From IMG/VR virus record IMGVR_UViG_3300009593_000069, positions 1-32,338 of that record: a DNA stretch of 32,338 nucleotides; one strand, written 5' to 3'. Position 1 is the stretch's first letter; each line of letters starts with the position of its first letter. Below are positions 3,930-32,306 of the stretch, piece after piece. Origin of the DNA: a virus. The notes beneath the pieces were generated by a model, which saw only the letters and a program-made list of their open reading frames with translations, had not been told where the DNA came from and searched no databases. The translations under genes and the position numbers were made by a program.

Positions 3930-4736
3930 ATGCCAACTAATGTATATTTCGATCACGGAACAACTAGTGAACAAAGACTATATGAAGATTTAATCATAGA
4001 GCAATTAAAAATCTATGGTCAAGATGTTTACTATTTACCTAGAACCGTAGTAAATGAGGATTCAGTATTAGGGGAAGATACTTCTTCTAAATTTACGGAT
4101 GCTTATGCTATTGAAATGTATGTTGAGAATACTGACGGGTTTGCTGGCGAACAGGAAATAATTAGAAAATTTGGTTTAGAATTAAGAGATGATATTACAC
4201 TTGTTGTTTCTAAAACAAGATGGTTACAAACAACAGAAATAGATAATAACTTAATTGAGGATTCAAGACCTAATGAAGGTGACTTAGTTTGGTTCCCTAG
4301 AGTTAATGCGTTTTTTGAAATTCAATTTGTAGAACACGAAGCACCGTTCTACCAAGTACACGATTTACCTACTTTTAAACTTAGATGTACTAAGTGGGAA
4401 TATTCTTCGGAAGAAGTTTCTGTTGGACATACAGAAATTGACGCCGTTGAGGATAATCTTTCAACTAATATGCTTGATTATCAAGTTAATCTTGAAGCTG
4501 GAACTGCTTCTAGTGGTTCAATTATGATGGAATCAGATATACCTGATGATAAGAACTTCATATTACTGGAAACTGCACCTGCTGAACTTGGTGAAAAACA
4601 AGTAGTAGATCAGTCGCATAAATTTGAAGCTGCGTCTGGTGTTACCACTACTAGCGATAGTACAGATGATATCTTGGATTTTAGTGAACGAAACCCATTT
4701 GGTGAAACTGATTATCACTTCGGGAAGGACTTCTAA
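3930..4736 (+). CDS. 14: Neck protein gp14
   Basis: A 268-residue homologue of T4 gp14 (about 256 residues), the partner of gp13 in the neck. Recognised from the N-terminal block YFDHGTTSEQRLYEDLIIEQ, the following YYLPR and the central W-F-P-R segment, which I know from cyanophage gp14 sequences, and from its place between gp13 and gp15. It is not related to the fibre genes upstream. Its stop codon overlaps the gp15 start (TAATG). Confidence 0.87.
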   Translation: MPTNVYFDHGTTSEQRLYEDLIIEQLKIYGQDVYYLPRTVVNEDSVLGEDTSSKFTDAYAIEMYVENTDGFAGEQEIIRKFGLELRDDITLVVSKTRWLQTTEIDNNLIEDSRPNEGDLVWFPRVNAFFEIQFVEHEAPFYQVHDLPTFKLRCTKWEYSSEEVSVGHTEIDAVEDNLSTNMLDYQVNLEAGTASSGSIMMESDIPDDKNFILLETAPAELGEKQVVDQSHKFEAASGVTTTSDSTDDILDFSERNPFGETDYHFGKDF

Positions 4737-5548
4737 TGTTTGGACAATATTTTTATAATAAACATTTAAGAAATACAGTTATCGCTTTCGGCACTATATT
4801 TAATACTATCGGTGTAAGAAGATATGACTCTAATGGTAATGCTGTATCAAGTTTAAGGGTGCCTTTAATGTATGCACCAAGAGAAAAGTTTTTAGCCAGA
4901 CTACAACAACAAACAACTTTAGGTTCTGGCAGCGAAGATTCAGTTGCAATCACTCTACCTCGATTGTCTTTTGAAATGACTGGGATCAGTTATGATCCTA
5001 GTCGTAAGATTAATAAAAACCTAAAGTATAAAAAAGCAAAAAGTGCTGACGATAATAAAGTATTTAAACAATTTGCTCCTGTCCCTTACAATGTAGGATT
5101 TAATCTTTATTCTTTTACAGCAAACTCAGATGATGGTCTACAAATAATAGAGCAAATACTACCTTTCTTTCAACCTGATTATACGGTTACATTTATTGAA
5201 AGTCAAACAATGGATATTAAAAGAGATATTCCTTTTGTATTAAATAGTGTTGACTATGAAGATACCTACGATGGTGATATGACTTCTAATAGAAGAATTA
5301 TATACACTATGAACTTTACTGCTAAAGTATATCTTTATGGTCCAATTACAAGTGGTGCTGTTATTCGTAAGGCGTCTGCTGATTTATATACAAAGATGAG
5401 TACAGAAAGTCCATCAAGATCAGAAAGAGTTACCATAACTCCTAATCCTACAACGGCAGACTATGATGATGATTACACATATACTGAAACTTTGGACTTC
5501 TTTGATGATGGTTTAAATTATGACGAACAATCAGGACTTGACAAATAA
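4736..5548 (+). CDS. 15: Tail terminator / sheath stabiliser gp15
   Basis: A 270-residue protein, nearly the same length as T4 gp15 (272). In T4, gp15 caps the finished tail as a hexamer and docks it to the neck. The N-terminal block FGQYFYNKHLRNTVIAFGT is characteristic of the family. It lies directly after gp14 with a one-base overlap. Its last 29 nt overlap the start of the radical-SAM gene, which is not part of the T4 neck cluster and looks inserted between gp15 and gp16. Confidence 0.87.
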   Translation: MFGQYFYNKHLRNTVIAFGTIFNTIGVRRYDSNGNAVSSLRVPLMYAPREKFLARLQQQTTLGSGSEDSVAITLPRLSFEMTGISYDPSRKINKNLKYKKAKSADDNKVFKQFAPVPYNVGFNLYSFTANSDDGLQIIEQILPFFQPDYTVTFIESQTMDIKRDIPFVLNSVDYEDTYDGDMTSNRRIIYTMNFTAKVYLYGPITSGAVIRKASADLYTKMSTESPSRSERVTITPNPTTADYDDDYTYTETLDFFDDGLNYDEQSGLDK

Positions 5549-6185
5549 ATTTTTCTCAAGAAAAAGAATAAACATAGATATAGGCTTTAGATGTACTCTA
5601 GAGTGTCCTAAGTGTGAACGCCAGAATAGTTATAAAGATATCAGACCTGTTCCTGGTAGAGATATGACTATACCAGAATGGCATAAAATAGTAGATTACT
5701 TTGACGAGATACAATGTTGTGGTCAAATATCTGATCCTATATTCAATCCTTACTTTATAGATTTCATAAAAATAGCAAAAGAAAAAGATAAGTATATGTT
5801 GGTTCATACCGCAGCTTCTCATAAACCAGTAAAATGGTATAATGAAGCTTTTGATAATTTTGGTAGAGGTGAATGGATATTCGGTTTAGATGGTTTACCT
5901 TATGAGAGTCATATACATAGAGTTAATCAAGATGGAAAAAAGTTATTTGAAATGGCTAAGTTATGTGTTAGTAAGGGAATTAGAACCCGTTGGCAATTTA
6001 TTATTTTTAAATATAATGAGAATCATATTGAAGAAGCTAGGAAGATGGCTGAAGATAATGGTATTGAATTTGAAATAAATATATCAGCGAGGTTTGACGG
6101 ACCTGAAGATCCTTTAAGACCTACTAATACTGACTATTATTTTGATAATGAAAAGTTTGCAATAATTGGAAATTTAAATGTCTAG
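5520..6185 (+). CDS. Radical SAM enzyme, N-terminal catalytic part
   Basis: A 221-residue protein with the radical-SAM cluster motif C25-X3-C29-X2-C32 (FRCTLECPKCER), which in this superfamily binds a 4Fe-4S cluster that cleaves S-adenosylmethionine to a 5'-deoxyadenosyl radical. The fold continues with DPIFNPYF, a hydrophobic strand near 92-97 and GLDGLP, all in plausible barrel positions. At 221 residues it is short for a complete enzyme. The next frame, beginning 8 nt before this stop, supplies a Cys-rich C-terminal domain of SPASM/twitch type, so the two may act as one enzyme. The substrate is unknown. The gene overlaps gp15 by 29 nt and interrupts the usual gp15-gp16 adjacency. Confidence 0.82.
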   Translation: MTNNQDLTNKFFSRKRINIDIGFRCTLECPKCERQNSYKDIRPVPGRDMTIPEWHKIVDYFDEIQCCGQISDPIFNPYFIDFIKIAKEKDKYMLVHTAASHKPVKWYNEAFDNFGRGEWIFGLDGLPYESHIHRVNQDGKKLFEMAKLCVSKGIRTRWQFIIFKYNENHIEEARKMAEDNGIEFEINISARFDGPEDPLRPTNTDYYFDNEKFAIIGNLNV

Positions 6186-6633
6186 AAATAATTTAAAACT
6201 TACGAAAGAAGGTGATGTCGTTCTTACTGGTCCTAGAGATCCAGAAGAATTAAAACCTTTGTGTTTAGACCATGGTATGTTTGCTGGTAAAGGAAACCAA
6301 AAAGATTTATCAGAATGGTTGGGTAAAGCATACGGATATAATTCTCAAGGTTATATTATGCCGTGTTGTTGGACTGTACAAGAAAAGGGATATGAAGAAG
6401 AACAATTTAAACCTTTAATGAAAGATAAATTCCATATTAGTAATGTAGATAAAATAGAAGATGTTGTACAATCTGAGGAATGGAAAGAATTTGCAGACAT
6501 ATTAATTAATAAACCAAAAAATGCACCTAATGTTTGTTGGTATTTTTGTGGTAAAAAGATAAACAGTTATATGAAGGATAGACCATTTATGGAAGGCGAG
6601 AGAGTTAAACAAGGTTTTAAGGAGCATAAATAA
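6178..6633 (+). CDS. Cys-rich SPASM/twitch-like domain, partner of the radical SAM gene
   Basis: A 151-residue protein with cysteines at 29, 63, 64, 120 and 124. The block G58-YIMP-C63 matches the G-X4-C part of a SPASM-type auxiliary Fe-S domain, and C120-X3-C124 could complete a site. The start overlaps the upstream stop (ATGTCTAG). A TAA at 6175-6177 in this same frame lies immediately before the ATG, and there is no good Shine-Dalgarno sequence, so translation is probably by coupling to the upstream gene. It could be a natural gene split, a recent single-base mutation in a once-continuous enzyme, or a sequencing error. On its own it lacks the radical-SAM C-X3-C-X2-C motif. Confidence 0.7.
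   Translation: MSRNNLKLTKEGDVVLTGPRDPEELKPLCLDHGMFAGKGNQKDLSEWLGKAYGYNSQGYIMPCCWTVQEKGYEEEQFKPLMKDKFHISNVDKIEDVVQSEEWKEFADILINKPKNAPNVCWYFCGKKINSYMKDRPFMEGERVKQGFKEHK
6625..6632 (+). promoter_or_regulatory. Possible late promoter element CATAAATA before gp16
   Basis: CATAAATA followed by ATAGT and the gp16 ATG at 6638. The same 15-base string (ATAAATAATAGTATG) occurs at the diiron gene start at 17547-17561. T4-type late promoters start about six bases after this box, which would place the start site on the ATG. An AAGGAG at 6619-6624 offers ordinary translation from a read-through message, and the box spans the upstream stop codon, so chance is possible. Confidence 0.35.
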
Positions 6634-6637
6634 TAGT

Positions 6638-7060
6638 ATGAGTAAAATAGATGATAAATTAAACGAAATCCTAGAGGTCACCGCTGAGGATATATTGGCA
6701 CCTAAAAAGGTTGAACCAAAAGAGGTTACGGTAGTGCCAGGACCAGCAGATCCACAAGACGATTTTGAACACGGAAGAGCAAACCTATATAAATTAATTG
6801 AGCAAGGTACTGAAGCAATAGATGGTATTCTAGCTCTTGCAAAAGAAAGTGAACACCCTAGAACATATGAAGTTGCAGGGCAATTAATATCTACTGTAAG
6901 TCAAGTATCGCAAGACCTATTAGGTTTACAAAGTAGATTAAAAAGACTTAAAGAAGTACCTAACAATGCACCTAAGAATGTGACCAATGCTTTATATGTA
7001 GGTTCAACAAATGAATTACAAAAACTTCTAAAGAAAAATAATGGAAAAAGCAAACCTTAA
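6638..7060 (+). CDS. 16: Small terminase subunit gp16
   Basis: A 140-residue protein (T4 gp16 is 164). The small subunit forms a ring that stimulates the gp17 ATPase and helps recognise DNA for packaging. Evidence is position directly before gp17, length, and the helical central region (about residues 45-105, containing DDFEHGRANLYKLIEQG and LGLQSRLKRLKE) typical of gp16 in marine T4-like phages. The Pro-rich residues 22-42 (PKKVEPKE, VPGPADPQD) look like a flexible linker. The last 20 nt overlap gp17. Confidence 0.85.
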   Translation: MSKIDDKLNEILEVTAEDILAPKKVEPKEVTVVPGPADPQDDFEHGRANLYKLIEQGTEAIDGILALAKESEHPRTYEVAGQLISTVSQVSQDLLGLQSRLKRLKEVPNNAPKNVTNALYVGSTNELQKLLKKNNGKSKP

Positions 7061-8681
7061 TCCTAACGAACAATATTTAGGTAACCCCAATTTAAAGAAA
7101 GCATTTACTTCTTCAGAATTTACTGAAGAGCAAATTGTTGAGTTGCAGAAATGTATTGAGAGTCCAAACTATTTTATAGAAAACTTTATTAATATCGTTA
7201 CCATTGATAAAGGTCTTGTACCATTTGAAATGTATAAGTTTCAAGAAAAGATGGTAGATACTTTTCACAATAACAGATTTACAATTTGCAAACTACCTAG
7301 ACAATCTGGTAAATCAACAATCATTATTGCATATCTATTACACTATGTTTTGTTTAATGAGAATGTGAATGTTGCTATACTTGCAAACAAATCAACAACT
7401 GCTCGTGATCTATTAGGTCGTTTACAACTTGCATATGAACATATGCCTAAATGGATGCAACAAGGAGTAATGAATTGGAATAAAGGTTCATTAGAATTAG
7501 AAAATGGTTCTAAGATTGTTGCAGCTGCAACTTCATCATCTGCTATTCGTGGTGGTTCTTTTAATGTAATATTTTTAGATGAGTTTGCTTATATACCTAA
7601 CAATATTGCTGACGAATTTTTTAGTTCAGTTTATCCTACAATTTCTTCTGGTAAGTCATCAAAAATTATGATGGTATCTACACCACACGGAATGAATATG
7701 TTTTATAAGATATGGACCGATGCTATCAATGGAAACAATACTTATGTTCCTATTGAAGTACATTGGTCGGAAGTTCCAGGTAGAGATGAAAAGTGGAAAG
7801 AAGAAACAATTAAGAATACAAGTGAGCAACAATTTCAAACTGAGTTTGAATGTGAATTCTTAGGTTCTGTTAATACATTAATTGCCCCAACTAAATTAAA
7901 AGCATTAGCACATATTGATCCACAAAGAAGTGGTGATATAGATATTTTTGAAATGCCTAAGAAAGACCATGTTTATACTTGTACAGTTGATGTATCGAGA
8001 GGTACTAACAATGACTACTCAGCATTTACAATATTTGATACAAGCGAAATGCCATATAGACTTGTTGCGAAATATAGAAGTAATGAAATTAAACCTGTTG
8101 TCTTTCCTAATATCATAAATGAAATTTGTAGAAAATATAATATGGCATATGTATTGGTAGAAACAAATGATTTAGGACAACAAGTAGCAGACGCTTTACA
8201 GTTTGAATGTGAATATGATAATATGTTAATGTGTACGCAAAAGGGTAGATCAGGACAAATATTAGGTGGTGGATTTAGTGGTAGAGGATCTTCTCTAGGT
8301 CTTAGAATGACAAAAGCTGCAAAGAGAGTAGGGTGTTCTAACTTAAAATCACTATTAGAAGGTGATAAGATGATAATACAAGACTTTGATACCATCGCTG
8401 AGTTGTCAACCTTTATATCTAAGGGTAAATCTTACGAAGCTGAAGATGGTTGTAATGATGATTTAGTTATGTGTCTAGTAATATTCGCCTGGGTCGCAAA
8501 TCAACAATACTTTAAAGAATTAGTCAATATTGATATGAGAAATGCCTTATTTGCTGAGCAACAAAACGCATTAGAGCAAGATATGGCTCCGTTTGGTTTC
8601 ATGGATGACGGGTTATCTGATACTGAGTCTGAAATAGATGAATATGGCGATGTCTGGTCACCCGTTGATGTCGTTAGATAA
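7041..8681 (+). CDS. 17: Large terminase subunit gp17 (packaging ATPase-nuclease)
   Basis: A 546-residue protein (T4 gp17 is 610). It drives DNA into the prohead and cuts the concatemer. The N-terminal ATPase has the Walker A-type block PRQSGKST at 86-93 (K91) and Walker B VIFLDE at 176-181 with catalytic E181. The C-terminal RNase-H-like nuclease shows acidic residues at D317 (VDVSRG), E374 (LVETNDLG) and D473/D474 (CNDDLV). The start overlaps gp16 by 20 nt. All the motifs expected of an active enzyme are present, with no intron or frameshift. Confidence 0.95.
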   Translation: MEKANLNPNEQYLGNPNLKKAFTSSEFTEEQIVELQKCIESPNYFIENFINIVTIDKGLVPFEMYKFQEKMVDTFHNNRFTICKLPRQSGKSTIIIAYLLHYVLFNENVNVAILANKSTTARDLLGRLQLAYEHMPKWMQQGVMNWNKGSLELENGSKIVAAATSSSAIRGGSFNVIFLDEFAYIPNNIADEFFSSVYPTISSGKSSKIMMVSTPHGMNMFYKIWTDAINGNNTYVPIEVHWSEVPGRDEKWKEETIKNTSEQQFQTEFECEFLGSVNTLIAPTKLKALAHIDPQRSGDIDIFEMPKKDHVYTCTVDVSRGTNNDYSAFTIFDTSEMPYRLVAKYRSNEIKPVVFPNIINEICRKYNMAYVLVETNDLGQQVADALQFECEYDNMLMCTQKGRSGQILGGGFSGRGSSLGLRMTKAAKRVGCSNLKSLLEGDKMIIQDFDTIAELSTFISKGKSYEAEDGCNDDLVMCLVIFAWVANQQYFKELVNIDMRNALFAEQQNALEQDMAPFGFMDDGLSDTESEIDEYGDVWSPVDVVR

Positions 8682-19371: not shown

Positions 19372-20418
19372 ATGAGAATTGAGCAAGACCTTAAATTAAA
19401 CTTTGAAGATGTTTTATTAAAACCAAAGCGATCTACTTTATCATCACGCCGTGATGTGGATATGGAACGAGATTTCGTATTCAGAAACTCCCAAAGAAAA
19501 TTCAAATGTGTACCAATAGTTGCGTCTAATATGGACGGTGTTGGCACATTTTCTATGGCAAAAGTCTTACAAGACTATAAGATGATTACTGCTATAACTA
19601 AAGATACCACAATAGAACAATGGAGAGAAGCTGCAGGTACAGGACTTAGATTACAAAATGTTTCTGTATGTACAGGTACTAATAGAATATGGGATGAGGA
19701 TGCACCTGATTATGCCACTATGGTACAGGTGTTAAATTCTTTTCCTGATATTAAAATGATTACAATAGATGTTGCAAATGCTTATCATCAAAATTTTGTA
19801 GATTTTGTTAAACTTGTTAGGGAAGAATACCCAGAAAAGATTATTACTGCAGGTAATGTGGTCACAGCAGAAATGACTGAAGAATTATTAATTGCAGGTG
19901 CTGATATTATTAAGATAGGTATAGGACCAGGGTCAGTTTGTACTACTAGAACTATGACTGGTGTAGGTGTTCCTCAACTTTCAGCAATAATGGAATGCTC
20001 AGACGCCGCAAACGGTGTTGGTGGTCATATTATGGCTGATGGTGGTTGTACTACTCCAGGAGATATTTCAAAGGCACTTGGTGGAGGAGCTCACTTAGTT
20101 ATGATAGGAGGAATGCTCGCTGGTCATAATGAATCTGAAATACAAATGGAAGAGGGTAGGAGAGAATTTTATGGTATGAGTTCCGATAGAGCTAGAGATG
20201 TACACGGTAAAAGAAAAGATGGTTATAGAGGTAATGAGGGTAAAGTAATTCAGTTGCCTGATAGAGGACCAGTTAGTGAAACAGTAGAAGATATTTTAGG
20301 TGGTGTGAGATCAACTTGTACTTATGTTGGTGCAAGACGACTAAAAGATTTGGCAAAATGTGCTTGTTTTGTCAGGACAAACAATGTAATTAACAGAATA
20401 TATGATAGGTACGAATGA
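19372..20418 (+). CDS. guaC: GMP reductase
   Basis: A 348-residue protein aligning end to end with E. coli GuaC (347). It reduces GMP to IMP and ammonia with NADPH. Matches include MRIEQDLKLNFEDVLLKPKRS (given here in short: the first 20 residues are nearly the E. coli start), ASNMDGVGTFSMA, AGNVVTAEM, GIGPGSVCTTR with catalytic C190, DGGCTTPGD, GGMLAGH and GGVRSTCTYVGA. The GMP-reductase form, with no CBS domain insert, is clear, so it is not IMP dehydrogenase. It starts a sigma70-type operon and overlaps uvsY by ATGA. It could move guanine nucleotides from degraded host nucleic acids to the adenine branch, useful for an AT-rich genome (inference). Confidence 0.93.
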   Translation: MRIEQDLKLNFEDVLLKPKRSTLSSRRDVDMERDFVFRNSQRKFKCVPIVASNMDGVGTFSMAKVLQDYKMITAITKDTTIEQWREAAGTGLRLQNVSVCTGTNRIWDEDAPDYATMVQVLNSFPDIKMITIDVANAYHQNFVDFVKLVREEYPEKIITAGNVVTAEMTEELLIAGADIIKIGIGPGSVCTTRTMTGVGVPQLSAIMECSDAANGVGGHIMADGGCTTPGDISKALGGGAHLVMIGGMLAGHNESEIQMEEGRREFYGMSSDRARDVHGKRKDGYRGNEGKVIQLPDRGPVSETVEDILGGVRSTCTYVGARRLKDLAKCACFVRTNNVINRIYDRYE

Positions 20419-20843
20419 CTTTAGACGAAATACAGGCTCAAGCCGATAAAGATTTGGTTATTGATGATACAGAATTAGATACTGAATCCTTAAAAACTCC
20501 AATACTACATAACAAATACTTACAACTTTTTAATAAGTTTAATTTACTATTGAAGAAATCTCAATGGGAAGAAAGAACTGTACAAAGAGAAAAGTGGGAG
20601 TACTATACAGGTAAATCTGATCCTGCTGTATATAAGGATAAACCTTTTGATTTAAAAGTTTTAAAAAATGATGTTCATATTTATATAAATGCTGATGAAG
20701 ATATACAAAAGATACAAGCAAAGGTAGTATATCAAGAGGCAATAGTTAATTATTTAGAACAGGTTTTAAGAATATTAAATAATAGATCCTTCACTATTAA
20801 AAATGCAATAGAGTGGAGACGATTTACGAGTGGTGCGATATGA
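20415..20843 (+). CDS. uvsY: Recombination mediator UvsY
   Basis: A 142-residue protein (T4 UvsY is 137). It loads the UvsX recombinase onto single-stranded DNA coated with gp32. Recognised from the TPILHNKYLQLFNKF segment, the motif QREKWEYYTGKSDP, the basic-aromatic DKPFDLKVLKNDVHIYI and the C-terminal helix RSFTIKNAIEWRRF, all typical of the family, and from its place before uvsW. Overlaps ATGA with both neighbours, so it is translated as part of the guaC operon. UvsX itself is not in this window. Confidence 0.88.
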   Translation: MTLDEIQAQADKDLVIDDTELDTESLKTPILHNKYLQLFNKFNLLLKKSQWEERTVQREKWEYYTGKSDPAVYKDKPFDLKVLKNDVHIYINADEDIQKIQAKVVYQEAIVNYLEQVLRILNNRSFTIKNAIEWRRFTSGAI

Positions 20844-21238
20844 TTGAACATAAACATATAATAGTTAGAGCATTAGTTAATAGACCATTAAAAGATACAG
20901 ATGAAACCAAACTTTGGTGGAATGATTTAGTTAAAGAAATAGGTATGGTTAAATTAGACTTACCTGAAAATCCCATTTGTGGTTATGTAGATACACCTGG
21001 AAACAAAGGTGTAACCATTGTGGGTATAATAGAAACTTCTCATATAGCTATGCATATATGGGATGAGCAAACTCCAGCTTTAGTTCAATTAGATGTATAT
21101 ACTTGCTCTTCGCTTCCTCAAGATAAAGTCCATCAGATGTTAGATGTTATGGATCCCATACAAGTAGATTGGGAAACATATGATAGAGAACATTCGTTGG
21201 AAAGAATTGATAACGGAGCAAGAAACTATGGTCCTTGA
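20840..21238 (+). CDS. speD: SpeD-like S-adenosylmethionine decarboxylase family protein
   Basis: A 132-residue product starting at ATG 20840 (ATGA overlap with uvsY); a GTG at 20813 is the only earlier option. It has the prokaryotic SpeD core: S67-H68 followed by H72 (TSHIAMHIWDE) and D85-VYT-C89. In SpeD the Ser becomes the pyruvoyl cofactor after self-cleavage of a Glu-Ser bond; His and Cys help catalysis. Here the residue before S67 is Thr (E65-T66-S67), not Glu, so processing should be tested. Overlap with the next gene is 11 nt. Likely role: AdoMet decarboxylation for polyamine synthesis, or a changed substrate. Confidence 0.75.
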   Translation: MIEHKHIIVRALVNRPLKDTDETKLWWNDLVKEIGMVKLDLPENPICGYVDTPGNKGVTIVGIIETSHIAMHIWDEQTPALVQLDVYTCSSLPQDKVHQMLDVMDPIQVDWETYDREHSLERIDNGARNYGP

Positions 21239-21827
21239 ACACCAGAGAATATTCCCAACACACATTTATATAGACCAAGAGTGTAATTTTGGTTTAAGAG
21301 ATATCAAGAAGTGGATATTAGACCATTACGAGGAGAACGCTGTTGAATGGCAAAGTGAACCTAACTTGTATGAGGTGGAAGAGTTTAAACCTTTAGTTGA
21401 TAAAATCAACAATAATGTAATTGAAATATTTAAAGACTTTAAGTTAAATACTGATAAGTTTGAAATTACTAATATGTGGGCAAATGTTAGTAAAGTAGGT
21501 GAAGGTCATAGACCTCATACACATTCTAATAATTTTTTAAGTGGTATCTTTTATGTATCCGCAGACTTAGACGATCATAACGGAATTACTTTTACAGACC
21601 CTAGACCTCAGTCTTGGGTGATTAACCCTCAAAGAGAAATGACAGTAGATACAGCTTCAATTCTTACATATAAAGCTAGAACAGGAACTATGTATATCTT
21701 TCCTGCTTGGCTTCAACACTATGTTGATATTAATAAATCAGCAACAAATAGAATAGGTATCTCTTTTAATATTATGTTGAAAGGATTAGTTGGTAATAAA
21801 AATGACTTACAATCAGCCACTTTCTAA
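21228..21827 (+). CDS. 2-oxoglutarate/Fe(II) oxygenase, TIGR02466-type
   Basis: A 199-residue protein from ATG 21228. An upstream ATG at 21180 would add 16 residues, but the GGAG at 21215-21218 suits 21228. The signature RPHTHSNNFLSGIFYV holds H97/H99, followed by TDPRP; the distal iron ligand is H164 in FPAWLQHYV and R175 in NRIGISFN should bind 2-oxoglutarate. These features place it in the putative 2OG-Fe(II) oxygenase group common in marine viruses. The substrate is unknown. It is the first of four such genes in this operon and overlaps the following one by 26 nt. Confidence 0.8.
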   Translation: MVLEHQRIFPTHIYIDQECNFGLRDIKKWILDHYEENAVEWQSEPNLYEVEEFKPLVDKINNNVIEIFKDFKLNTDKFEITNMWANVSKVGEGHRPHTHSNNFLSGIFYVSADLDDHNGITFTDPRPQSWVINPQREMTVDTASILTYKARTGTMYIFPAWLQHYVDINKSATNRIGISFNIMLKGLVGNKNDLQSATF

Positions 21828-22359
21828 TTACATTTATCGCTGTTCTGGTGGGGCTAAAAATGAAACTTTAGATCGAGTAGTATATTATTTTGACAATGAA
21901 GAGGATTGGAAACAATCAACCTTTTCATCTTCTCTTGGTAAGACAGGTACACAAAAAGTTCAAATGGATGAAATGTGGATAGCGCCAAAGACTCGTAGTT
22001 ATGATTACTTTAAATCAATACTTCTTAAAGCTGTTAAAGAGTATCAACAAAAGTTCCCATTTTGTCAAGTACAAACTAATACAGCTTTTAGGATGAATCG
22101 TTATGGTACAGGTGGGTTTATGAAGAACCATGTAGATTCTATTCATCATTCTCACGGACAAAAGTTTGGTTACCCTCATATAACTTCATTACTGTTTTTG
22201 AATTCTAAATTTAAAGGGGGTAATTTTAATCTTTGTGGGGAATCATTTGAAATGGAACAAGGAGAAATCTTAATATTCCCATCAAATTTTATGTTTCCAC
22301 ATTCAGTTGAGAAGGTAACTTCAGGCAAAAGATTTACTCTTATGGGATGGTGGATGTGA
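21802..22359 (+). CDS. 2-oxoglutarate/Fe(II) oxygenase, prolyl-4-hydroxylase-like
   Basis: A 185-residue protein from ATG 21802 (a TTG at 21790 is the only extension). Iron ligands are H110-V-D112 and H167 (FPHSV); R177 in GKRFTLMGWW probably contacts 2-oxoglutarate. The pattern of strands between them (ITSLLFLN, FKGGNFNL, GEILIFPS) fits the jelly-roll of the P4H-like branch. It is a different subfamily from the 21228 protein, since the HxD motif and the C-terminal GWW differ. It overlaps uvsW by 13 nt. Substrate unknown. Confidence 0.82.
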   Translation: MTYNQPLSNYIYRCSGGAKNETLDRVVYYFDNEEDWKQSTFSSSLGKTGTQKVQMDEMWIAPKTRSYDYFKSILLKAVKEYQQKFPFCQVQTNTAFRMNRYGTGGFMKNHVDSIHHSHGQKFGYPHITSLLFLNSKFKGGNFNLCGESFEMEQGEILIFPSNFMFPHSVEKVTSGKRFTLMGWWM

Positions 22360-24908: not shown

Positions 24909-25610
24909 ATGTCAAGCACTAATCCTAGTTTTATAGGTGAATATTATATAGATGAAAAATTTTGTGATGAACTAGTAGATTTCTTTAATGCAACCCCCTT
25001 TCAAAGAGAAAAAACTGACCCTAAACGATATTATACAAAAGTTGAAGGTCAAATAGGAACTTTTGACCAAAGAACAGATACAACTATAAAAGATTCAACA
25101 GACCTTACACTTAATCATAATTTATTCTTTTCCAATGACCTCCCACCAGAAGCACTTCCCTTTTGCCATATAGCTCACAAATATATAGAATACTTACGGC
25201 CTTGTATAGATGAATACGGTAAAGAATACGAACACTCTCAAGAAACAGTATGGCAAATTAAAGAAGGAATTAATCTTCAACATTATGCCCCAGGTCAAGG
25301 ATATCATCATCTACATTGTGAACGACAAGGAACAAGTGAACCCTTTTGTTGGAGACATTTGGTTTTTATGACTTATCTAAATACAGTAACCGATGGCGGT
25401 GAAACATGGTTTAAATACCAAGACAAAAAAGTTAAAGCTGTTAAGGGAAAAACTGTAATATGGCCTTCTGATTGGACACATATGCATAAAGGTATTGTAT
25501 CTCCGACACAGGATAAGTATATAATGACTGGATGGATATCTCATACAAATCCTGATGATGTATGGGTTCCTAATACATTAAAAGGACTTCAATTAACGCT
25601 TGACCTTTGA
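24909..25610 (+). CDS. 2-oxoglutarate/Fe(II) oxygenase, prolyl-4-hydroxylase-like
   Basis: A 233-residue protein. INLQHYAPGQGYHHLHCE contains the proximal H136-C-E138 iron ligands (HxE rather than HxD), TDGGETWF is a typical core strand, and WTHMHKG holds the distal His (H193, or H191) with K203 (DKYIMTGW) as 2-oxoglutarate anchor. A 44-nt gap precedes it (the only gap of that size in this operon), with AACCCACAAGGGT as a short inverted repeat and no convincing promoter. It is followed by the sigma70 promoter of the gp55 operon, so it ends its operon. Confidence 0.83.
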   Translation: MSSTNPSFIGEYYIDEKFCDELVDFFNATPFQREKTDPKRYYTKVEGQIGTFDQRTDTTIKDSTDLTLNHNLFFSNDLPPEALPFCHIAHKYIEYLRPCIDEYGKEYEHSQETVWQIKEGINLQHYAPGQGYHHLHCERQGTSEPFCWRHLVFMTYLNTVTDGGETWFKYQDKKVKAVKGKTVIWPSDWTHMHKGIVSPTQDKYIMTGWISHTNPDDVWVPNTLKGLQLTLDL

Positions 25611-26377: not shown

Positions 26378-27459
26378 TGAAGATAGCACTTCTTAACGAT
26401 TCACACTTCGGAGCCAGAGGTGATAGTGAAGTTTTTGATAACTACATTCACAAATTTATGGAAGATATATTCTTTCCGTATCTTAAAGAACACAATATCA
26501 CTACACTAATCCACTTAGGCGATATATTAGATAGACGAAAGTTTATCAATTTTAAAACTGCTTATAATTTCAGACGCAAGTTTATGAGGAAATTATGGGA
26601 AGAAAAGATTGATACACATATTATTCTAGGTAATCACGACACTTACTTTAGAAGTACAAACGAAGTAAATGGTCCTGAGGAGTTATGTACTACACCAGAC
26701 GGCAAACACGAACCTTGGATATACACTAAGACAACTGAGGTAGAGTTTGATGGTATGAAAGCATTGTTTATACCTTGGATCAATCCCGAAAATGAAACAG
26801 AAACATTTGATCTAGTGAATTCTACAAAAGCTGAGATTGCATTTGGTCATTTAGATATCAATGGGTTTGAAATGCACGCCGGTATGGTTGAGGCACACGG
26901 TCACGATAAATCTTTATTTTCTAAGTTTGAAAAAGTTATGTCAGGACACTTTCATAAAAAGTCAGATGATGGTCAGATATTTTACTTGGGTAGTCAGTAT
27001 GAATTAACTTGGTCAGATTATGACGACCCCAAACACTTTCATATATGGGATACAGATACTAGAGAACTTACTCCAATTAGAAATCCATTAACAATACACG
27101 ATAAGTTGTATTATAATGATAGAGATACAAATTATGATGATTACGATATTACACCTCACATAGAAAAACATTTAAAAATAATTGTAGTTAATAAAACTAA
27201 TCCTGAAATGTTAGATAGATTGCTTGACAGGTTTTATAGAGTCAATATGCACGAGCTGAAAATTATTGAGGATTATAGTGATTTGGATGCAGGTAATGTA
27301 TCAGATGATATTGTTGAGAGAAGTGAAGATACAATTACATTAGTTGATAATTATGTTGACGCTTTACCAATAGACTTAAATAAGGACAGACTAAAAACTA
27401 TTATAAGAGAATCTTATGTAGAGGCACAGGATAGTGCTGTAAAAACAAATGACGGATGA
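26377..27459 (+). CDS. 47: Recombination nuclease subunit gp47 (Mre11-like)
   Basis: A 360-residue protein (T4 gp47 is 339) of the calcineurin-like phosphoesterase superfamily. Metal-binding motifs are D8-S-H10 (LLNDSHFG), GDILDRR with D49, GNHD at 85-88, AFGHLDING and SGHFHKK. With gp46 it forms the Mre11-Rad50-like exonuclease that resects DNA ends for recombination and takes part in host DNA breakdown. The gene overlaps gp55 by one base and the methylase by ATGA, so gp47 and gp46 are split by one gene. Confidence 0.92.
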   Translation: MKIALLNDSHFGARGDSEVFDNYIHKFMEDIFFPYLKEHNITTLIHLGDILDRRKFINFKTAYNFRRKFMRKLWEEKIDTHIILGNHDTYFRSTNEVNGPEELCTTPDGKHEPWIYTKTTEVEFDGMKALFIPWINPENETETFDLVNSTKAEIAFGHLDINGFEMHAGMVEAHGHDKSLFSKFEKVMSGHFHKKSDDGQIFYLGSQYELTWSDYDDPKHFHIWDTDTRELTPIRNPLTIHDKLYYNDRDTNYDDYDITPHIEKHLKIIVVNKTNPEMLDRLLDRFYRVNMHELKIIEDYSDLDAGNVSDDIVERSEDTITLVDNYVDALPIDLNKDRLKTIIRESYVEAQDSAVKTNDG

Positions 27460-27983
27460 AATATAAGGTAATATATGCAGACCCTCCTTGGTACTTTAAA
27501 TCATATTCTAAAAAGGGTGAGGGTAGGAATGCTATTCAGCATTATGATTGTATGTCGATTGACGATATTTGCAATCTTCCTGTTCGTGATGTCGCTGATA
27601 AAGATTGTGTTCTTCTTATGTGGGTTACTGATCCAACTTTATTGGATGCCTTTAAGGTTATGGAATCTTGGGGTTTCACTTACAAGACAGTAGGATTTAC
27701 CTGGGTGAAAACAAATAAGAGTGAAGGATATTTTACAGGTATGGGATATTGGACTAGATCAAATCCTGAAATGTGTTTATTAGGTACAATAGGCAAACCT
27801 AAAAGGTTAGATATGTCAGTAAAACAATTAGTCGTATCACAAAGGAGAGAACATAGCAGAAAACCAGATGAGGTTTACGATAGAATAGAGAAGATGTTAG
27901 AAGGACCTTATTTAGAAATGTTTGCTAGAAATACAAGACAAGGGTGGGATAATTTTGGTAATGAGGTAACAAAGTTTGATTGA
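27456..27983 (+). CDS. MT-A70 family DNA N6-adenine methylase
   Basis: A 175-residue protein. DPPW (residues 9-12, in YADPPWYF) is the catalytic motif of N6-adenine methyltransferases; the later part (VTDPTLL, FTWVKTNK, NPEMCLLGT, REHSRKPDEVY and LEMFARN) is characteristic of MT-A70 methylases found in phages and bacteria. No restriction nuclease is adjacent, so this is an orphan methylase or a self-protection enzyme. It overlaps gp47 by ATGA and gp46 by 8 nt, so it is tightly fixed in the 47-46 unit. The recognition sequence cannot be predicted. Confidence 0.88.
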   Translation: MKYKVIYADPPWYFKSYSKKGEGRNAIQHYDCMSIDDICNLPVRDVADKDCVLLMWVTDPTLLDAFKVMESWGFTYKTVGFTWVKTNKSEGYFTGMGYWTRSNPEMCLLGTIGKPKRLDMSVKQLVVSQRREHSRKPDEVYDRIEKMLEGPYLEMFARNTRQGWDNFGNEVTKFD

Positions 27984-30384: not shown

Positions 30385-30920
30385 GCAAACACTTTCTAGT
30401 AGACCCCACAGCTGAGATAGTAAATAAACCTATACCTTTATTTACAGATAATCTACTAGGGGATGATAAAAGAGAAGATATAACAAATGCTATGGAAAAA
30501 GAAATGGTACGATATGGGGGCATAGGATTATCTGCTAATCAAATAGGGTTACCTTTTCGTATGTTTGTTATGGGTGGACATCCTTTGATTGAAGAAGGTA
30601 AGGTTAGACAATGTTGGAATCCTGAGATACTTGAGAAAAGTGATGAAACAATTTTAATGAAAGAAGGTTGTTTAACTTTTCCATGGTTATTTTTAGACAT
30701 TAAAAGACCTAAGTGGGTTAAGGTTAAATATGAGAATAACGAAAAAGAAACTGTTGAAGAATACTTACACGGACACCCAGCTAGAATATATCAACACGAA
30801 TTCGATCATATGGAAGGTATACAATTTACAAGTTTAGTAGGAAAGTTGAAATTAGAACGAGCAGAAAAGAAAAGGAAAAAGGATATAAAGAATGCCGCTA
30901 GGGATAAAGCCAAGTCTTAG
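30381..30920 (+). CDS. def: Peptide deformylase
   Basis: A 179-residue protein from ATG 30381 (ATGA overlap; a TTG at 30363 is the other choice). The three family motifs are intact: GIGLSANQ (47-54), EGCLT (95-99, metal ligand C97) and QHEFDH (138-143, H139, E140, H143). It removes the formyl group from new proteins. Marine phages often carry short deformylases; in cyanophages these are thought to help turnover of photosystem proteins, which would not apply to a SAR11 host, so here the benefit may be faster processing of phage proteins (inference). Confidence 0.9.
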   Translation: MSKHFLVDPTAEIVNKPIPLFTDNLLGDDKREDITNAMEKEMVRYGGIGLSANQIGLPFRMFVMGGHPLIEEGKVRQCWNPEILEKSDETILMKEGCLTFPWLFLDIKRPKWVKVKYENNEKETVEEYLHGHPARIYQHEFDHMEGIQFTSLVGKLKLERAEKKRKKDIKNAARDKAKS

Positions 30921-31626
30921 AGAGTTAATAATATCTCCATTTGAGGGTGATTTTCAAAAAGTTTTTAATCATCTTGATAGTTTAGGTTGGAGTGAAGTAA
31001 ACACGAAGAATACTAAAGATGGACAATGGGCTATGTTATCACTAAGAGGATATTCAAGTGATCCTAGAAAGTGTGGTAAACCTGCTGAAGAATGTGCCCC
31101 TAGAGTTGCAGTAGATGGCGATACAGTATTTACTGGTCCTAATGTTGCATTAAGTAAAAGTTTTGTAAAAGAAAAAGTCTATGATGGTTATGAATTTGAA
31201 GTAGAGTATTTACACGAAGGCGGTGAATTACAAGATTGCTCTATTCGATATGGTGATGTATTTAAAATAATAGAAGAAATATTAGAACCACTACCTTGCG
31301 AGTTTCAAAGAATACGATTTGCAAAATTAAAAGCAGGATCATTTTTAGAACCTCATACAGACGCAATAGATCAATCTTTTGGATTGCAAGATGGTGAGAT
31401 TGCAAGAATAGCTGTACCTTTAAAAACAAATGAAGGTGCTACATTTAGTGCTTATCCACAAGGACCTGATGGACCAGAAAGAAAAATGCATTTACACTTA
31501 GGACACTATTACTATACGGATGTTAAGGGTTGGCATTGTGTGAATAATGTGGGTGAAGAAGATAGAATACATTTATTAATAGACTGTATATCTAATAAGA
31601 AATTAAGAAGGTTAATACTACAATGA
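30892..31626 (+). CDS. Aspartyl/asparaginyl beta-hydroxylase-like 2OG oxygenase, paralogue 1
   Basis: A 244-residue protein. The C-terminal half has H155-T-D157 (PHTDAID), R172 (RIAVP), the distal H215 (WHCVNNV) and R225 (EDRIHLLIDC), the arrangement of the Asp/Asn beta-hydroxylase branch of 2OG enzymes. The N-terminal half (about 1-120) has WSEVNTKNTKDGQWAML and LRGYSSDP and is shared with the next gene. It overlaps the deformylase by 29 nt and its paralogue by ATGA. The substrate is unknown; the family includes small-molecule and protein hydroxylases. Confidence 0.8.
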   Translation: MPLGIKPSLRELIISPFEGDFQKVFNHLDSLGWSEVNTKNTKDGQWAMLSLRGYSSDPRKCGKPAEECAPRVAVDGDTVFTGPNVALSKSFVKEKVYDGYEFEVEYLHEGGELQDCSIRYGDVFKIIEEILEPLPCEFQRIRFAKLKAGSFLEPHTDAIDQSFGLQDGEIARIAVPLKTNEGATFSAYPQGPDGPERKMHLHLGHYYYTDVKGWHCVNNVGEEDRIHLLIDCISNKKLRRLILQ

Positions 31627-32306
31627 ATTGGGTTACAGATAAGGGTATAAAATTAAGTGCTGTACCTAACGGTACAGGATTCAAAGAAATGAATTATTTT
31701 ACTTTAGAGGATCACGGTTGGTACTTTCAACCAGTACAACCTAAAGTATTAAAACCAGTTGCAGATTATTTAGATACTTTAGAGTTTAAGAAAGTTAAAA
31801 CAAAATACACAAAGGGAGATACTTGGACTGCTATTGCATTAAAAGGATATAGTAATGATCCTTTAGATGTAACCAAACCTGGGGTGTTAAAGACCAAACA
31901 GAAAACGGATGCGAAACTACAATGGACTGAACTATATCAAGCACCAGAAATGCAACCTATATTAAACATATTAAAAACCATACCTTGTAGAATGGAACGA
32001 GTTAGGTTTATGAAATTAACAGCAGGCAAAGTTATTAATAAACATACAGACAAAATAGATAAAGATATTGGTATTGAAGATGGTCAGATAACTAGAATAC
32101 ATATGCCAGTTAGAACGAATAATTTGGTGACATTTTCTATATGGGATGATAATAAGTTTAAACAAGATTATAAGCTAAAGACTGGACAATTCTACTATAC
32201 AGATGTTAGAAAAGCACACGCTGTTGAAAACTTATCAGATACCGATAGAATACATTTGGTTATGGATTGTTATGTAAATGATGAATTACGAATGATGATA
32301 TGTTAA
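31623..32306 (+). CDS. Aspartyl/asparaginyl beta-hydroxylase-like 2OG oxygenase, paralogue 2
   Basis: A 227-residue tandem paralogue of the gene before it. Matching parts are KVKTKYTKGDTWTAIALKGYSNDP, broken here as TKGDTWTAIALKGYSNDP, the iron ligands H141-T-D143 and H199, and R158 and R209 (DTDRIHLVMDCYVND). Both copies retain the full active-site set, so neither is a decayed duplicate. The insert around AEECAPRVAVDGD in copy 1 is replaced by VTKPGVLKTKQ here. It is the last gene of the gp55 operon, followed directly by a new promoter. Confidence 0.8.
   Translation: MNWVTDKGIKLSAVPNGTGFKEMNYFTLEDHGWYFQPVQPKVLKPVADYLDTLEFKKVKTKYTKGDTWTAIALKGYSNDPLDVTKPGVLKTKQKTDAKLQWTELYQAPEMQPILNILKTIPCRMERVRFMKLTAGKVINKHTDKIDKDIGIEDGQITRIHMPVRTNNLVTFSIWDDNKFKQDYKLKTGQFYYTDVRKAHAVENLSDTDRIHLVMDCYVNDELRMMIC

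Follow-up and report, generated by a model that had tools for sequence, protein, structure and literature searches.

The DNA analysed here, called the window, is the whole 32,338-nt stretch of the IMG/VR virus record IMGVR_UViG_3300009593_000069. It is from a T4-like marine phage whose nearest isolates by gp17 are the Pelagibacter phages HTVC008M (67.5%) and Mosig (66.0%). It was found that two overlapping genes lie between a gp15-like tail sheath stabiliser gene (4736..5548; 50.7% to the HTVC008M homologue by tblastn) and a gp16-like small terminase gene (6638..7060; assigned by synteny and similarity in relatives), which is followed by a gp17-like large terminase gene (7041..8681; 67.5% to the HTVC008M terminase). 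All are on the plus strand. The first gene of the pair, A (5520..6185; ATG 5520-5522, TAG 6183-6185), encodes a putative radical-SAM catalytic subunit of 221 aa, and the second, B (6178..6633; ATG 6178-6180, TAA 6631-6633), a putative twitch-like auxiliary Fe-S subunit of 151 aa. The start codon of A lies inside gp15, with an overlap of 29 nt (5520-5548). The start codon of B and the stop codon of A share the 8-nt overlap ATGTCTAG (6178..6185). Since an in-frame TAA (6175-6177) lies immediately 5′ of the B start codon, B cannot extend leftward. B ends 4 nt before the gp16 start (6638), and a T4-late-promoter-like sequence, CATAAATA (6625..6632), which is a consensus match only from a pattern scan, lies at the end of B just 5′ of gp16. 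Elsewhere in the window are three 2OG-Fe(II) oxygenase and two aspartyl/asparaginyl hydroxylase-like genes (21180-22359, 24909-25610, and 30892-32306), and SAM decarboxylase-like, IMP dehydrogenase-like, and MT-A70 genes (20813-21238, 19372-20418, and 27456-27983).

The A protein matched phrog_21308 (radical SAM) in PHROGs with an E value of 7e-10 and TIGR04317 weakly. The window A alone had no match to the Pfam radical-SAM family (PF04055), which was matched by 34 of 81 homologue rows, the natural fusion of contig L088 scoring above the cut-off. The radical-SAM assignment of the window A rests on PHROGs, the homologues, and the fold. A Pfam match of A to Sulfatase (E 0.0056) was judged to be due to chance. 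B matched Pfam SPASM with an E value of 0.0025, under the curated cut-off, and 11 of 13 B homologues matched the same family. When PDB sequences were searched, the A profile gave weak matches only, and the joint A+B profile gave BtrN at an E value of 0.067.

The cysteine residues of A are at positions 25, 29, 32 (CTLECPKC, or CX3CX2C), 66, 67, and 149, and A has GQISDP where a GGE-type motif is usual. B has exactly five cysteine residues (29, 63, 64, 120, and 124) and the motifs GYIMPCC (GX4CC) and CWYFC (CX3C). The usual C-to-G spacing is 9-15, while the window B has an insertion that makes it CX28GX4C; short-linker relatives such as Mosig B (CX12GX4C) are inside the CX9-15GX4C range. The original prediction, made from the letters of the window, was correct to the base in its CX3CX2C and 221-residue length for A, its GX4C and CX3C for B, its overlap, and its TAA before the ATG. 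I collected relatives by profile scans of viral contigs, which gave about 350 each for A and B, and examined the top 80 from each scan. Every one of 49 non-redundant pairs retains the CX3CX2C cysteines of A, the only invariant ones in the A family, and the five cysteines of B; the loss of B cysteines in relatives, which the original prediction had raised as an argument against itself, was not seen. The dN/dS values against relatives are 0.09-0.22 for A and 0.24-0.45 for B, and both genes are under purifying selection. The A and B distances of the 49 pairs correlate with r = 0.79, the maximum of 2000 permutations being 0.15.

Is the enzyme encoded by one gene or two in the relatives? It was revealed that the A loci fetched comprise 60 with A then B, three with B then A (one of which, in L007, belongs to a tandem repeat), seven fused, and six without an adjacent B, mostly at contig ends. 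The B loci fetched, a set that has some contigs in common with the A set, comprise 37 A-B, 28 B-A, four fused, three at edges, and two orphans. The B-then-A order occurs about 30 times across the fetched loci. The spacing of A and B runs from an overlap of 98 nt to a gap of 75 nt, and B is found in either of the two frames that A does not use; the 8-nt overlap class has 11 loci, and overlaps of 4, 11, 14, and other lengths are found elsewhere. The comparison with related phages proposed in the original prediction has thus shown that the split recurs and that fusions also exist. Natural A-B fusions amount to 11 ORFs, including L088, L093, L094, and L095 in the A-side set, with four more from the B search. 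In the A tree, where several joins involve long branches, the seven fused proteins nest inside the split family in two groups; the radical-SAM proteins of the distant outgroup are undivided. Because of this nesting, fusion is probably secondary to the split. A programmed frameshift was rejected because the overlaps vary and the B-A order exists. The split is biological and not an assembly error. In summary, many marine bacterial viruses carry as two genes a radical enzyme that is usually one protein.

Some loci depart from the pair. L026/L113 (one contig) has an A without B at gp15/gp16, and L193 and L194, near-identical contigs of 34-35 kb, have a B without a detected A; since all of these contigs are fragments, such absences carry little weight. 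A 2OG-oxygenase-like gene lies near the orphan B of L193 (2914-3375) and L194. In L016 (3810-4178), B lacks the usual start and has an ATG 75 nt past A, in the A frame, which may reflect an alternative start or damage. Eight relatives are from bacterial and archaeal assemblies. In two of them, the Hyphomicrobiales contigs L097 and L098, the neighbouring genes are chromosomal; at least L100 has phage neck genes, and others resemble phage contigs binned into MAGs. The close bacterial pair of L097 (7986-8938) and L098, with 59% identity in A, lies among unrelated metabolic genes. In a distant Alphaproteobacteria MAG (L104:1863-2823), an apparent barrel-only gene is followed by a short cysteine-rich gene, and further radical-SAM genes adjoin them.

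The natural fusion of L088 (306 aa) was modelled with a pLDDT of 83.2 and a pTM of 0.81, and the window A and B joined in silico with a pLDDT of 82.2 and a pTM of 0.80. To tether the window pair, TAGA was translated as a single residue, a modelling device that implies no read-through, and the A-B interface is predicted from these artificially tethered or naturally fused chains rather than from two free chains. Residues 1-297 of the L088 model matched SuiB (Z 18.0), BlsE (17.9), SkfB (16.7), PqqE (16.3), and BtrN (14.5), and residues 1-361 of the tethered window model matched the same structures with Z scores of 14-18. MoaA, DesII, and anSME were also matched nearly at full length by both models, in the same range. 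The joined A and B are thus modelled as a radical-SAM barrel followed by a twitch domain. The barrel of the window A begins at about residue 16 with no preceding domain in the model, and an RRE-like N-terminal domain is absent from it.

In the twitch layout, one cysteine residue lies before a beta-hairpin, one after it, and two past the next helices (PMC6231123). In the window model, C29 (in a region of low pLDDT) is followed by a hairpin, C63/C64, helices, and then C120 and C124. The model and the conservation agree with the twitch layout for the window B, while the ligation itself is predicted. B had originally been called SPASM/twitch-like; the twitch half of that term stands, with a five-cysteine, one-cluster pattern, and the SPASM half does not, as the seven-cysteine motif is missing. 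A full SPASM domain with two auxiliary clusters was ruled out, because B has five cysteine residues only. B probably holds a helper iron-sulfur cluster. The claim of a radical-SAM gene with a separate auxiliary Fe-S gene between gp15 and gp16 is now strongly supported.

Close relatives (81-91% in gp15) have either A/B at gp15/gp16 or an empty junction of 21-29 nt. Variants at this site are A′B′AB in L007, A only in L026/L113, and A-B-B in L031. Other clades have at this site either 2OG oxygenases or a tryptophan halogenase (phrog_2928, E 9e-106). In HTVC008M, for which a search of the phage collection gave no A/B pair, the gp16/gp17 junction is occupied by a halogenase and a 2OG oxygenase. L088 has fusions at both gp15/gp16 and gp16/gp17, while L196 and L218 have B-A at gp17/gp18. 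The gp15 tree is poorly resolved, with carriers and non-carriers interleaved, and no gp15 position was found that separates the two. The best reading is that marine T4-like phages carry the A/B pair as mobile cargo at gp15/gp16. Neck-terminase cargo in place of the radical-SAM pair, namely a tryptophan halogenase-like FAD enzyme or 2OG oxygenases, lies in L131 (4818-6275), L128 (3399-4711), and NC_020484 (62261-65157).

It is likely that A and B are two subunits of one heteromeric radical-SAM/twitch enzyme, the formation of a complex being an inference. A would fold as a partial (beta/alpha)6 barrel holding the SAM-cleaving [4Fe-4S] cluster, and would most likely make the 5′-deoxyadenosyl radical. 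B, as a separate polypeptide, is predicted to dock at the usual position of a C-terminal twitch domain. It would supply one auxiliary Fe-S cluster, with four of its five invariant cysteine residues as likely ligands, and this cluster may act as an electron acceptor or a substrate ligand. The overlap of the genes may couple their translation, so that A and B would be made in step, presumably from the late neck-gene transcript and thus probably late in infection. The enzyme would most likely oxidise, epimerise, or cross-link a small molecule or glycan late in infection, rather than modify a virion protein.

What is the substrate? In one clade, the C-terminus of B is fused to a phrog_1962 glycosyltransferase domain (L017:3073-4161 and L042:5666-6793; E 9e-18 and 4e-13). 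The A/B neighbours in relatives include DegT aminotransferases, carbamoyltransferases, and other radical-SAM genes. Because of this fusion and these cassettes, a sugar or surface glycan, a tentative assignment, is favoured over a virion protein, which seems unlikely; the fusion and the sugar neighbours belong to clades other than the gp15/gp16 clade. In L017 (1182-2318), and similarly in L019, L052, L067, and L089, the pair is preceded, immediately or at a short distance, by a separate gene for a one-piece radical-SAM protein (364-385 aa). A run of radical-SAM genes with amidinotransferase and sugar-transferase-like genes was seen in the Campylobacter phage CP220 (NC_027997 70690-78497).

The original prediction had called a virion or late protein a possible substrate. 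By that explanation, A/B would be a two-subunit maturase of a neck, tail, or terminase protein from the same transcript. The repeated insertion of the genes in the neck-terminase-sheath cluster (the window clade, L088, L196, and L218) and the presence of the peptide modifiers SuiB, SkfB, and anSME among the best fold matches speak for it. However, the tryptophan halogenase, the 2OG oxygenases, and a methyltransferase occupy the same sites, and gp15/gp16 is a cargo hotspot that is empty in some relatives and filled with A/B, a halogenase, or oxygenases in others. Carriers are interspersed with non-carriers in the gp15 phylogeny, and no fixed difference in gp15 sets them apart. The pair also occurs at a distance from virion genes, namely in Mosig, in a replication region (L247), and on bacterial chromosomes, and it is found in sugar/glycosyltransferase cassettes. 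The lack of an RRE-like domain also argues against it. A RiPP maturase with a local precursor was rejected, as the window has no room for an adjacent precursor-peptide ORF; A overlaps gp15 and B stops just before gp16, although a precursor gene may lie farther away. A virion substrate is thus unsupported and improbable.

An alternative that is less probable still is that B acts on its own as an Fe-S electron carrier, serving A or another radical-SAM enzyme through transient contacts, and is not a structural subunit. B is indeed separable, as seen in the order swaps, the tandem B-B after one A in L031, and the orphan B of L193/L194, and radical-SAM proteins can exchange electrons, as with PapB and QueE (PMC10470005). 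However, the natural fusions have the canonical domain order, A and B co-diverge, and the joined chains fold confidently in both the fused and the tethered models. Within the two-subunit reading, the system might even be exchangeable, with the barrel subunit pairing in trans with different twitch subunits and B tuning or redirecting the radical generator. This is a rather speculative extension, which was considered because of the tandem A′B′AB, the A-B-B, the lone B, and the B-glycosyltransferase fusion. An assembly or sequencing frameshift (the single-base error at 6170-6185 feared in the original prediction) or a decaying pseudogene of a one-piece enzyme is extremely improbable, for although one extra base could join the junction and the distant outgroup is one-piece, the split recurs in independent contigs with varied overlaps, both frames, and reversed order, and with purifying selection on both genes.

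With the barrel and the auxiliary domain in separate, reorderable genes and with fused relatives at hand, a cluster subunit could be added, omitted, or swapped without truncating a protein. There is continuing debate over the role of the auxiliary clusters of SPASM/twitch enzymes (PMC9012708, PMC10470005), and the A/B family offers a naturally dissected system in which to study the function of the helper cluster. The split also explains 'orphan' short radical-SAM genes and cysteine-rich hypothetical genes in the annotation of marine phages. In marine T4-like phages, the junctions in the neck-terminase region emerge as trading sites for oxidative and radical enzymes.

Among known phages, the genes 00084/00085 of Mosig (MT647606) are the same pair, with 45% identity in A and an 8-nt overlap. 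They lie in a sugar/redox cassette and are annotated as 'molybdenum cofactor biosynthesis enzyme' and 'hypothetical protein'. MoaA has a C-terminal CX2CX13C cluster motif and a GGE-type motif. The MoaA identity was rejected, as the pair has C...CC...CX3C and GQISDP instead. Radical-SAM cassettes have been reported in host-recognition clusters of pelagimyophages, and the passages of that report found by keyword make no mention of gp15, gp16, SPASM, or a two-gene split (PMC7029224). No description of a separately encoded SPASM/twitch subunit was found in the open-access papers searched. Like BtrN, SkfB, and MoaA, A/B has a CX3CX2C barrel and a small C-terminal domain with the twitch cysteine layout (PMC6231123); the Z scores to BtrN and SkfB are 14.3 and 17.3 for the tethered window model and 14.5 and 16.7 for the L088 fusion. 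Unlike these enzymes, the twitch part is a gene of its own, sometimes upstream of the barrel gene, and B has a CX3C pair and an extra adjacent cysteine (PCC). A/B resembles the SPASM enzymes SuiB, anSME, PqqE, and CteB in the near full-length fold match (SuiB Z 18) and the weak SPASM match of B. However, B lacks their seven-cysteine CX9-15GX4C-gap-CX2CX5CX3C-gap-C, and A/B has no RRE and is two genes. The fold also resembles that of the sugar-acting BlsE (Z 17.9 and 16.7) and DesII (16.3 and 16.6), which are single polypeptides, and a common fold does not establish a common substrate. In thuricin CD biosynthesis, TrnC and TrnD are two polypeptides in one working radical-SAM assembly; each of them is a complete radical-SAM protein, whereas A is the barrel only and B the auxiliary domain only (PMC12093266).
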